Shown here: positions 8,370 to 56,698 of the stretch, in pieces
Position numbering within the stretch: the stretch's first letter is position 1
Layout of the letters: every line of letters starts with the position of its first letter
From: Treponema sp.
GTDB taxonomy: Bacteria; Spirochaetota; Spirochaetia; Treponematales; Breznakiellaceae
NCBI GenBank assembly: GCA_009777335.1
Contig: WRMC01000001.1
Span: forward strand, 62,001-126,000
Direction of reading: 5' to 3'
Length of the DNA: 64,000 nt
The notes under the pieces: generated by a model
Told to the model about the DNA's origin: nothing
The model's database searches: none
The model's input: only the letters and a program-made list of their open reading frames with translations
Translations under genes and position numbers: made by a program

Positions 8370-8930
8370 CCAAGACCTACCATGCACACCCAGCTCGCGC
8401 TGGACAGGAACCTTCATCCCTGCCGAGCTCCGCTGGCGGTCTGACCCTAAAATCTGAACCTCCTAAGCTGGCCTTACCTGCCCGCCAGAGGCTCGTCATG
8501 GACGAAGTTCCTGCTCCAGCTCAGATAGATATGTGTGATTAGATCAAGAAGAGCTTTTAATAATCCACCCCACAAGTGAGGTTGGTGGGTAAGAGTAATG
8601 AAAAATTCCTGACAAGGGTGTCAGTCATCATGGAAGAAAGGTGACTGACACCCTAGGTTAGTTCTAAATCTGGGCATATTGGAGTATTTGGAGAATCACC
8701 CCATTGATGTATCATTACTCTACACCGACTGTACATGTAGGGTTGATTTGTAAAGGCTCTTCTCAATCCAACCGCTCATAGCTTGCTCAGCTGGAGCAAA
8801 AAATGGTCCCTGCGGCGACTTCGGCTGCTGAAGAAATTTATATACACTAACTAATGAGTATGGGATGCAGGCCGTTCGAGCCGCGGGGGCCATGTTTTTG
8901 TCCAGCGGCGCACTGCGCATGAGGTCTTGG
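8370..8930. repeat. Family B inverted-repeat element, copy 1
   Basis: The element is bounded by CCAAGACCT (8370) and its complement AGGTCTTGG (8922-8930). Each end continues to CGCTGGACA, after 19 bases on the left (then GGAACC) and 14 bases on the right (then AAAAACAT). The right part (8745-8930, read on the minus strand) closely matches copy 3, including the block GGACCATTTTTTGCTCC. The left half carries diverged pieces of the same core (AGAAGAGC, AATCCACCCCACAAGTGAGG), so the whole is a long imperfect palindrome. An internal 13-bp hairpin lies at 8615-8654. There is no convincing gene inside. It fills the divergent interval between the ABC ATPase promoter and the HAD gene. Confidence 0.8.
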
Positions 8931-8964
8931 ATTATAAGTAGATCCATAATAATCATATCTATGC

Positions 8965-43371: not shown

Positions 43372-43442
43372 TCCCCGGTTGTGTAACGGTAGCACGATAG
43401 ACTCTGGATCTATTTGTGGGGGTTCAAATCCTCCCTGGGGAA
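43372..43442 (+). tRNA. tRNA-Gln (anticodon CTG)
   Basis: A complete cloverleaf: acceptor TCCCCGG with CTGGGGA, anticodon stem ATAGA/TCTAT around CTCTGGA (anticodon CTG), T loop TTCAAAT. The discriminator is A and no CCA is encoded. With the TTG isoacceptor at 31736 it reads both glutamine codons. Confidence 0.93.
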
Positions 43443-43467
43443 TACATAGTCCACTATATCTCTAATA

Positions 43468-43540
43468 GGCCCCATCGTCTAGCGGTTTAGGACACGACCC
43501 TCTCAAGGTCGAGACCGGAGTTCGAGTCTCCGTGGGGCTA
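43468..43540 (+). tRNA. tRNA-Glu (anticodon CTC)
   Basis: The acceptor is GGCCCCA with TGGGGCT (a G-U first pair, common in tRNA-Glu), the anticodon loop CTCTCAA sits between CGACC and GGTCG, and the T loop is TTCGAGT. The discriminator is A and CCA is absent. It lies 25 bases after tRNA-Gln on the same transcript; a repeat element begins 11 bases later. Confidence 0.93.
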
Positions 43541-43550
43541 AAAAGGGGGG

Positions 43551-43833
43551 TAGGTTTGATCTCGCCACCTATCATGTACACCTGCCAGAGGGGTGTGGGC
43601 CGCCATGGTCTAGGAATTGAGATGAACCCGCCTACGGAGCCCCCGGCATCCAGTTTCTCGTATGCTATCATTGTGTTCAGCTTTTCTCGCACATACTGGA
43701 TGCCGGAGCTTCTCTCATTATCCCATTCTGCTTTACCTGCGGTCTCCTCCGGCGGGGAACTCCCAGATATTCCTAGCCCACAGCGACCCCCACCCCTCTC
43801 AGTGTTTGCTTCATTAGTGGCGAGATCAAACTA
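43551..43833. mobile_element. Family A MITE-like element, copy A1
   Basis: The 283-bp element has terminal inverted repeats TAGGTTTGATCTCGCCAC (43551-43568) and GTGGCGAGATCAAACTA (43817-43833), beginning and ending in TA. Inside is an inverted repeat CCGGCATCCAGT / ACTGGATGCCGG. About 130 bases are near-identical to copy A2 in opposite orientation. No transposase is encoded; frames across it change reading between copies. Its position just after a tRNA gene and before apt fits a non-autonomous insertion. Confidence 0.8.
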
Positions 43834-43877
43834 AATTATTACGAAAGTTCCTTGAGAAAGGTGTCAGTCGCCCTACA

Positions 43878-44458: not shown

Positions 44459-44499
44459 TGATAGCTTAGCAGGTTAGATTAAGGTAGACATAATAAAGA

Positions 44500-45092
44500 C
44501 CAAAACCTCCATATCTCTTCAACGCTGGACAAAAACATGCCCCTAGCGACTCCGGTGGCAGGGAAAGCCCTTAACCTATGCCCCTGTATATAACACCATT
44601 CTCCTGCCAATGTCGCCGCCAGGAGCATTTTTTGCTCCAGCTGAGTAAGCACTGAGCGGTTGGACTGAGAAGAGCCTATCATAATCTATCCTACAAGTAA
44701 GGTGGGGGGAAGAAAAATAATGGTGTTTGCCGACAAAGGTGACATATTCCCTGGGCTGACCGACTACACCTTTCCTGAAATCTAGCTTAGGCGGCTTTCT
44801 TCTCCCACCTTGTTATTGATAATGATGGTACTACATCGGCTATACCATGCAGGTGGTTCTCGATGATCATCTTCTATCGAACCACCCGTATCTCTCAACG
44901 CTGGTGCTGCAAAAATTCCTGGCGGCGATTTCTGCAGCACAAAAAAGCTATATATTTAAAACATAGATGAAGGAGTTCGCTGCAGCTGGAGCCGACAGGG
45001 ATTGTTTGCTGACCAGCGAGAGGGGACTTGGTGGGTGTTTGATAGATTGGACTATGTTTTTGTCCAGCGGTGAACTGCGCATGAGGTCTTGG
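44500..45092. repeat. Family B inverted-repeat element, copy 2
   Basis: Ends are CCAAAACCT (44500) and AGGTCTTGG (45084-45092); both continue after 14 bases to CGCTGGACAAAAACAT. The left half (to about 44700) is nearly identical to copy 3 over the 75 bases containing GGAGCATTTTTTGCTCC and TGAGAAGAGCCTATCATAATC. The right half, read on the minus strand, keeps TCGCCGCCAGGA and the end, so the halves form a long imperfect palindrome. Further hairpins are at 44851-44887 (GGTGGTTC / GAACCACC) and around 44903-44940 (GTGCTGCA / TGCAGCAC). No gene is convincing. It fills the apt to guanine deaminase interval. Confidence 0.8.
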
Positions 45093-54367: not shown

Positions 54368-54754
54368 GACGGTTCCTCATTACCCTTTCTGCCTCAAGTA
54401 TACATCGGGTGGGGGATATTATCCATATGATATGAAAAGATGATTATGAAGGTAGGGTTGATCTCGCCACAACCCTGCAAAATCCAAGACCTCTATACTC
54501 CTTCACCGCTGGACAAAAACATGCCCCTAGCGGCTCGAACGGCCTGCATCCCATACTCCCTGTCTAATGTATATAAATTTTTTCAGCAGCCGAAGTCGCC
54601 GCCAGGAGCATTTTTTGCTCCAGCTGAGCAAGCACTGAGCGGTTGGACTGAGAAGAGCCTATCATAATCCATCCTACAGATGATGGTGGGTGGGAAAGAG
54701 TGATGTAATATGCAGACAAAGATGTCAGACACCCGTTTGTTGTCGGCAAACAAA

Positions 54755-54805
54755 ACAGGACACTTTGCATGTTTTCTATTTTGAAAAACATGCATTTTGT
54801 CCTGT
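54755..54805. repeat. Long imperfect palindrome
   Basis: ACAGGACA...TGCATGTTTT and AAAAACATGCA...TGTCCTGT form a roughly 20-bp stem with few mismatches around a TATTTT-type loop. It lies in family B copy 3 just before A2. Confidence 0.7.
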
Positions 54806-54837
54806 TCCCAAAATCATTGCTTTACGACTTGGTGATG

Positions 54838-55177
54838 TAGTTTGATCTCGCCACTTAGGTGATCAAACACGGGGAGGGGTGGGGGCTGCTTGGGGCTAGG
54901 TAATATCGGCGCATACATGCGCAGGGTTCTCCGCCGGAACCCCCACCGAGGCTCGTATGAGCCGAGGTTCCCCTCTGGAAGGAGACCTCGAGAAAAGCAG
55001 AATGGGAAAATGAGAGAAGCTCCGGCATCCAGTATGTGCGAGAAAAGCTGAACGCAATGATAGAATACAAGAAACTGGGTGCCGGGGGCTCCGTAGGCGG
55101 GTTCACCTCAATTCCTAGACCTGAGCGGCACACACCCCTCATGGGGGTATATTTTTTTTGGTGGCGAGATCAACCTA
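54838..55177. mobile_element. Family A MITE-like element, copy A2, nested in family B copy 3
   Basis: The 340-bp element has ends TAGTTTGATCTCGCCAC (54838-54854) and GTGGCGAGATCAACCTA (55161-55177). Read on the minus strand it shares with A1 the block running from AGGAATTGAG past the CCGGCA(T/C)CCAGT / ACTGGATGCCGG hairpin. It differs from A1 in the distal third. No transposase is encoded. Confidence 0.8.
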
Positions 55178-55261
55178 CAGGTTCCTGTCCAGCGCGAGCT
55201 GGGTGTGCTGGGTAGGTCTTGGGTTTGAATAGGTTGTGGCGAGATCAAACCTACGTAACAA

Positions 55262-56698
55262 TTAATCTTTCATATCCAGGTGCACTGCAGCTGTTGTGAA
55301 GGCCTTGGGGAGGGCCAGGATGGGGGGGCTGTCACCCAGGTATTTTCTTTGGGCGTCTGCATAGGCCTCTTTGAAGGTGGCCCGGGTTTTCATGCCCATC
55401 CCCCGGGCATAACCGCCCTCCATGGCTCCCACTATGTAGATGGCCTTGGAGTGGATTTCGGCAATGTGGGCGCAGCTGAGCATGGAGAAGGTATGGTAGG
55501 GGTGGTAGCCGTAGCCGAAGCGGTACTTTTCTATGTACTCCGGTTTTCGGGCAAAGTATTCCCCGTAGCGATCCAGGTCCGGCAGGGTCTGGTGGTAATC
55601 ATGTTGGAAGAGCTCGTAGACCTCCCGGTAGGAGGGGAACTCTTCATCGTGGAAGTAGCCGTTGCAGAGGGAGGCGCAGATTACCACCGGCGTATCGGTC
55701 AGGATCCGCTTATGACGGATCAGGGTGGCAGAGATGGCCTGCATGATAAAGATGGGGTTGGTCCCCATGCCGTTCCCGTAATGAAAGGCCTGGGGCATCC
55801 CAAAGACCAAGAGGTCGTACTTCTTGTCCGCCCATTTTACATAGGTCCTTTGGTCCGCGATAGGCCAGCTTGAGCGCTGGACCTCCTGGGCATAACCGGA
55901 AAAGACGGCGATCTGGTTGGCCCTGGTATCGAGGACCGCATCGCAGGTGAAAAACTTTTTCCCCATGGCCTTTTCCATGTGCATCCCTATGGCGTCAAAG
56001 CGGGAACGCATCTCGTTATGGACAGATACGGGGGTGAACTCATCCTTATGCATCACCGCCGGGTTATGGTGGCAGGCAATGCTTTCCCAGGAGGTGATGC
56101 CGGTGGCACAGTGCTTATAGCCCCCAGAGTAGCCGCCGTAGGGGTTCCCCAGTACATGGCCAATGAGGATGGGGATGTCGGCCTCGAAGACCTGGCGGTT
56201 CATGATCACCCGGGACCCCATCTCGTCCTTTCCCAGGTCAATGAGGTTTTCCCGGTCTTCGCTGTCATGGTTAATAATTTGCCCGGTCCCCCAGAACTCG
56301 TGGATGATCTCTTCACCCAAGAGGCTCGTAATTTCTTCCTTGGTATTTTTCCGGTGGAGCCCGTTGGAACAGATCAAGAGGATGTCCTTTTTATGGACCC
56401 CCGATGCAAGGAGTTCTTCGATGATGATGGGGATGGCGGTCTTCCGGTGGGATTGTGCCTGGGTGCCCCCCTTTACCTTATCGGGGAAGACGATCACCGC
56501 CTTCTTGCCGGGGCCCCCCAGGACCGAAAGGCCCTCCATGCCCAGGGGGTTTTGGATGGACCTGCGGGTTTCGTCCGCCAGCTTATCAAAGGGGATATGG
56601 GGAGGGTCGCTGACCGTCTCACCGGGAATGAACACATCGGTATGATCGGGAAGCTCCGCTTCCATAAAACCATGGCCGTACTCAAATTGAAGCTTCAT
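55262..56698 (-). CDS. LarA-like (nickel-pincer lactate racemase family) protein
   Basis: From the ATG at 56698 (GGAGGAAT upstream) the product is 478 residues. It has NGLHRKNT, matching the LarA His108 region, and GGYSGGYKH, matching the lysine that binds the nickel-pincer nucleotide. LarA proteins racemise or epimerise 2-hydroxy acids. The usual DDVTRP-like loop is altered (PDKVKGGTQ), so the substrate may differ from lactate. No larB, larC or larE genes are in the window. It follows the dehydrogenase gene by one base, suggesting one hydroxy-acid pathway. Confidence 0.75.
   Translation of the reverse strand: MKLQFEYGHGFMEAELPDHTDVFIPGETVSDPPHIPFDKLADETRRSIQNPLGMEGLSVLGGPGKKAVIVFPDKVKGGTQAQSHRKTAIPIIIEELLASGVHKKDILLICSNGLHRKNTKEEITSLLGEEIIHEFWGTGQIINHDSEDRENLIDLGKDEMGSRVIMNRQVFEADIPILIGHVLGNPYGGYSGGYKHCATGITSWESIACHHNPAVMHKDEFTPVSVHNEMRSRFDAIGMHMEKAMGKKFFTCDAVLDTRANQIAVFSGYAQEVQRSSWPIADQRTYVKWADKKYDLLVFGMPQAFHYGNGMGTNPIFIMQAISATLIRHKRILTDTPVVICASLCNGYFHDEEFPSYREVYELFQHDYHQTLPDLDRYGEYFARKPEYIEKYRFGYGYHPYHTFSMLSCAHIAEIHSKAIYIVGAMEGGYARGMGMKTRATFKEAYADAQRKYLGDSPPILALPKAFTTAAVHLDMKD

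Follow-up and report, generated by a model that had tools for sequence, protein, structure and literature searches.

Bacterial MITEs are usually viewed as decayed remnants of which only the ends are conserved, and TA is the target of several small bacterial mobile repeats. A locus in a Treponema sp. of the Breznakiellaceae (GenBank assembly GCA_009777335.1, contig WRMC01000001.1) raises the question of what such a repeat can consist of. In the 64,000-nucleotide stretch analysed here (the window), a copy of one short repeat family, A, lies inside a block of another, B, and this block is itself enclosed by a further pair of A-type ends. Does the arrangement record a recent insertion of one repeat into another, as a preliminary description proposed, or is it a composite element that moves as a whole? 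Bacterial MITEs and small mobile repeats described so far include ERIC, Correia/NEMIS, RUP, YPAL, CIR and RPE (reviewed in PMC2229807), and 92 stem-loop families have been surveyed (PMC2267715). No report of the present family was found in the open-access literature.

Results

Organisation of the window copy

The window copy reads T–L1–hairpin–T–A–T′–L2 stub–T′, in which T and T′ are inverted ends and L1 and L2 are types of B arm. The four ends lie where they had been placed before: the outer left end at 54453–54470 (plus strand; TAGGGTTGATCTCGCCAC, TA-flanked), the left end of A at 54838–54854 (plus), the right end of A at 55161–55178 (minus, TA-flanked) and the outer right end at 55236–55253 (minus, TA-flanked). 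Their nesting is real, as GATCTCGCCAC is present six times in exact form in the window, where shuffles predict 0.02 occurrences. The outermost ends flank a B-like block (54484–55222) delimited by CCAAGACCT and GGTCTTGG, whose two ends are arms of different types. On the left is an L1 arm of about 250 bp (54479–54735), for which the minus strand is the folded and selected one and which is matched by the L1-arm covariance model R3 at 54489–54632 (minus). On the right, directly after A, comes a 76-bp stub of an L2-type arm (55179–55254, plus), with relatives at C8:62757, C17:6504, C8:39234 and C1:236011 (contig:position in the same assembly). The AACAGGACACTTTGCATG hairpin module of the centre (54752–54806) has further copies at C12:76749, C1:181089, C8:62380, C1:235583 and C27:5634. 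Element A itself (54838–55178, plus) has inverted ends at both sides and is 340 bp long, with two small hairpins more than most copies, which measure about 270–280 bp. Its structured core (54953–55118, plus) is matched by a cross-genus covariance model, R2, at 81.4 bits (E 6.7e-18), yet the window copy is absent from the R2 alignment.

Similarity between the outer arms runs a few bases past the T ends into AT-rich flanks, forming a 57-nt inverted repeat of 75% identity (54429–54492 and 55214–55276). By-eye inspection of the open reading frames detected no transposase-like frame inside the element. The earlier view of two non-coding repeat families, each with its own inverted ends, is borne out. 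A LarA-like gene adjoins the site and has no close orthologue in the congeners (best identity 30%).

Dispersed copies and their ends

In the whole assembly (2.16 Mb, 28 contigs, 77% complete), GATCTCGCCAC has 26 + 23 = 49 exact matches, compared with 0 + 0 for the reversed control. A search with 54440–55275 returned 101 matches, and both families recur with clean boundaries. About 40–50 copies of the element (about 50 intervals) are dispersed through the genome with sharp boundaries and mostly unique right flanks, and several contigs terminate within copies. None of 50 elements is spanned by a long open reading frame, and all copies examined are intergenic. The flanking genes are in tandem in 19 cases, divergent in 14 and convergent in 10, with no clear position bias relative to genes and none for a downstream location. 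Terminal inverted repeats, the lack of a transposase gene and dispersed, sharp-edged copies point to a MITE-type repeat.

The ends have the form TAGG(T/A)TTGATCTCGCCAC and are inverted repeats with TA outermost. As had been suggested, TA is found at the ends: it is present at 22/32 outer-type ends but at only 5/20 left ends of A that have an inner position (p 0.004, Fisher test). The TA is palindromic, and a target duplication looks the same as terminal bases of the end itself. TA is missing from some of the outer ends, five of which carry CA. Median pairwise identity among the copies is 77%, with 95% for the best pair. By these values the copies in this genome are mostly old and do not show the recent movement of at least one family that had been proposed.

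Modules and composites

The copies are built from a limited set of modules: A (270–340 bp, with TIR-like ends), a centre that varies between copies, and arms of three types (L1, L2 and L3). All three arms start with AAGACC and have in common the motif CGCTGG(A/T)..(T/A)CCAGC. B elements without A have the layout arm> centre <arm. Their arm pairs are L1/L3 (window 44495–45092, L1 on the left and L3 on the right; C5:7461), L1/L2 (an L2 and an L1 arm at about 8370–8933 in the window), L2/L1 (C5:121404) and L2/L3 (C21:989). In the composites, the place of the right arm is taken by A, giving L1–A (C12:76443, C6:96182, C3:169744 and C13:54777) and L2–A forms (C8:62090, C17:5776 and C24:18346). A also occurs alone, at C1:52641, C7:70174, C15:38392, C16:1584 and C1:105550. 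The last of these is window 43550–43836 (minus), with both ends present and its core at 43610–43776; it starts about 10 bp past the second of two consecutive tRNA genes (43372–43540).

The L1–hairpin–A junction of the window recurs at C12:76443–77131 with 81% identity. Left of A, seven contexts are shared by clusters of copies and many are singletons; that of the window copy is common only to C12:76989. Right of A, at least 27 copies have unique host flanks, and the L2 stub is found only in the window, on C17 and twice on C8. The shared junction, the many A–B joins and the at least seven shared left contexts indicate that A–B joining is old and recurrent and predates the window copy. Some composites were amplified after the joining.

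These data bear directly on the proposal that this site records the recent insertion of an A MITE into a B MITE that was already there. Such an event would agree with the presence of A's own TA-flanked inverted ends within the block, and with the occurrence of A and B each alone elsewhere. However, the junction shared with C12 means that joining preceded spread. Moreover, the B arm to the right of A is missing or reduced to the 76-bp stub rather than being the expected remainder of B, the right end of A meets host DNA in most copies, and TA is mostly lost at the inner left end. Recent insertion at the window site is thus largely refuted by the shared junction, and we consider it very unlikely.

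The companion suggestion of a hybrid unit, with A-type ends and a B-type core, that is mobile as one fared better. It is probably correct, because the genome has repeated instances of L1–A composites whose outer ends are flanked by TA (C6:96182, C3:169744 and C12:76443). TA is kept at most outer ends and mostly lost at the inner left A ends, which fits use of the outermost ends, decay of the inner end and movement of composites as units. We infer that composites spread as units via their outermost ends.

Further variation was seen within the modules. A third, small palindromic family, an insert of 43–58 bp (GGAACCCCCACCGA..GAGGTTCCCCTCTGG; family C, GGAACCCCCACCGAGG..GAGGTTCCCCTCTGG in the window copy) occupies two or three fixed loop positions in the A core (window 54936–54979, C2:159315, C5:5719, C1:235871, C1:250606, C27:6052 and C8:39046) and also occurs in B arms (C21 and C5:121340), like a parasite of the repeat. 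The apical hairpin of L1 (window 54540–54600, for example) consists of unrelated sequences in different copies while the hairpin is kept; five or more versions exist, which gives the impression of an exchanged cassette. A GTGTCAGNCACC-type palindrome in the centres of B elements and composites (e.g. window ~54728–54737) marks where the likeness between copies stops; the same type is present near A copies in relatives (flanks of loci in genomes G176 and G188).

A folded, strand-biased core

The A core comprises about 170 nt within a long GC-rich stem, with a mean column identity of 92%. RNAalifold analysis of 35 A copies from this genome predicted 57 pairs. At these pairs GT/TG cells numbered 243 and AC/CA cells 9, a count that leans towards G.T since the structure was predicted with G.U allowed. 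Forbidding G-U in the strand test drops informative positions, and a count with registers defined from Watson–Crick pairs only was used in its place; this less biased count gave 67 G.T and 6 A.C at partly paired positions. The consensus fold scored −79.7 on the forward strand and −36.5 on the reverse, and 35/35 copies were more stable forward. The L arms were more stable on the reverse strand (24/24, 9/9 and 6/6 copies), with small numbers in the register-based count. Since the arms fold on the reverse strand and A on the forward, the reading of a left arm and that of its A would both run outward, away from each other. Shuffle-based fold z-scores were −9.3 for the whole unit and −5.5 for A, values that a palindrome alone would also give.

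The predicted structure of the A core is selected on one strand, most likely as RNA and otherwise as single-stranded DNA, with which G.T tolerance is equally compatible. A promoter scan remained at chance level. Searches against Rfam returned no family match up to E 1 for the window stretch, or up to E 0.5 for homologous loci, apart from tRNA and a few chance-level matches, and in both sets only tRNAs reached the gathering score.

A core that served as a single-stranded DNA structure, recognised by an enzyme of the Y1 type or by another that acts on single strands (compare REP/RAYT systems or attC sites), would likewise be palindromic, intergenic and multi-copy. The strand-specific structure suits it as well as it suits RNA, and it agrees with the lack of bias for sites downstream of genes. 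On the other hand, Y1_Tnp is absent from the 77%-complete assembly, TA-flanked inverted ends are unlike those of REPs, and the length of ~170–340 bp contrasts with the 20–40 bp given for REPs in PMC3733652. We regard single-stranded DNA as an unlikely form of the core.

Distribution and conservation in relatives

A DNA search of 59 relatives found no homolog, and homologs were reached by covariance model only. R1, a model of the A core, matched 22/200 genomes of the family in 8/57 genera, the present genome included; weak single matches near threshold may include chance. It was multi-copy in G154, G188, G179, G176, G034 and G112 and absent from three congeners. R2 matched 6/393 genomes of the phylum, including this one, all six in the same family; one carrier is a closed genome of 4,059,867 bp, in which the core is only about 55–70 nt. 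R3 matched the present genome alone among 200, and so the B arms, judged by L1, look species-specific. The corrected A-end pattern gave 24 scattered single matches, roughly the number expected by chance, in 84,980 GTDB genomes and two in viral contigs; the conserved two-part pattern had none in viral contigs. By exact sequence, then, the A family is undetectable outside its own genome, near-identical genomes having possibly been left out of the GTDB search.

In the cross-genus alignment of 33 sequences, 28 pairs were predicted and 21 of them showed two-sided (compensatory) changes. Cells were paired in 92.7% of cases, versus 73.1% after shuffling (0/500), which loses the relatedness between sequences, and 35–50% after sliding, which keeps it. 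The predicted structure is thus conserved, with compensatory changes above the controls. Relatives show less of a strand bias (29 vs 9), with the forward strand the more stable in 18/27. Element A belongs to a structured family, conserved as RNA (or as a single strand) and common to several genera, a feature that the preliminary description did not list.

In the relative G154, the same core lies between TA-flanked TAAACTTGACC and GGTCAAGTTTA ends, with 18 + 17 matches against 0 + 1 for the control. The ends resemble those of the present genome by eye (TTGAYCYCGCC), a likeness that falls short of demonstrating homology. The G154 elements are 280–305 bp long with sharp boundaries, and core-less versions of about 66 bp are also present. 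Three copies on three contigs are 94–96% identical, so more recent spread likely took place in this relative. At four G154 loci (L144, L146, L147 and L148), pairs of A share a common spacer of about 80 bp; it seems that in this relative composites of two A units, too, were copied as one.

The strength of conservation invites the idea that the core is an RNA of benefit to the host, for instance in mRNA stability, termination or regulation, and that it spread by segmental duplication or recombination rather than by transposition. With a column identity and structure so strongly conserved, mostly old copies and patchy TA, this idea has some appeal. It accords poorly with the many sharp-ended copies in unrelated flanks, the variable position relative to genes given above, the patchy distribution with three congeners lacking the core, and the sharply bounded, TA-flanked copies in G154. 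We give it only a small chance.

Candidate mobilisers

A search for an IS630/mariner-like transposase with these ends had been suggested. The IS630 domain DDE_3 is absent from the 77%-complete assembly and occurs in 5/22 carriers versus 74/178 non-carriers (p 0.11), with no enrichment in carriers, and IS630 is not supported as the mobiliser. Nor is RAYT, given that Y1_Tnp is absent from this assembly. No autonomous partner or transposase was seen in this genome or between the G154 ends, in incomplete assemblies and with two transposase families tested.

Discussion

We conclude that the locus is probably one copy of a modular, non-autonomous MITE-type element, TA-flanked and with a structured core joined to species-specific arms. 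In the mechanism that we favour, a transposase supplied in trans would cut the outermost T ends and insert the element into TA. The composite T–L1–hairpin–T–A–T′, here with an L2 stub and an outer T′, would move whole by these ends, and the inner left A end would decay inside composites. The core would be transcribed and act as a folded RNA, or less likely as folded single-stranded DNA, to which a protein of the host or of the mobility machinery would bind. L1, L2 and L3 are folded modules that are exchanged between copies and are joined to A in this genome.

The nearest known kinds are MITEs with RNA-folding potential and composite miniature elements (PMC2229807, PMC2267715, PMC4133298). Like bacterial MITEs, the element is short, non-coding, intergenic and multi-copy, with inverted ends and the potential to fold as RNA in transcripts (PMC2229807, PMC2267715). 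It differs in that its core is kept by two-sided changes across genera while the ends and stems differ in sequence, and in that this core is strand-biased and joined to interchangeable folded arms. TIME and TIME-COMP, which are Tn3-derived miniature elements with Tn3-type ends of ~38 bp and 5-bp duplications, are likewise non-autonomous and form composites mobilised by the outermost ends (PMC4133298). By contrast, the present element has ends of about 18 bp with TA and is assembled from modules with an RNA-like structure. Repeats of the REP/BIME type with RAYT are also palindromic and intergenic and are recognised as structures; the present element is far longer, has TA-flanked inverted ends and resides in an assembly without Y1_Tnp. 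Rfam RNAs such as riboswitches, group I/II introns and HEARO share conserved structure and covariation with it, although no family matches here. There is an outside chance that the core is what functions in a novel class of structured RNAs that are mobile. Such an RNA would help to mobilise itself, serving as guide, scaffold or processed intermediate alongside an unrecognised protein, and would acquire interchangeable folded arms.

In this family, ends and stems vary by species while compensatory changes preserve the inner folded core across several genera, so that selection probably acts on the core. The family, its covariance models and the closely similar G154 copies open a way to the role of a MITE-borne RNA, to the protein that reads it and to the origin of the composites.
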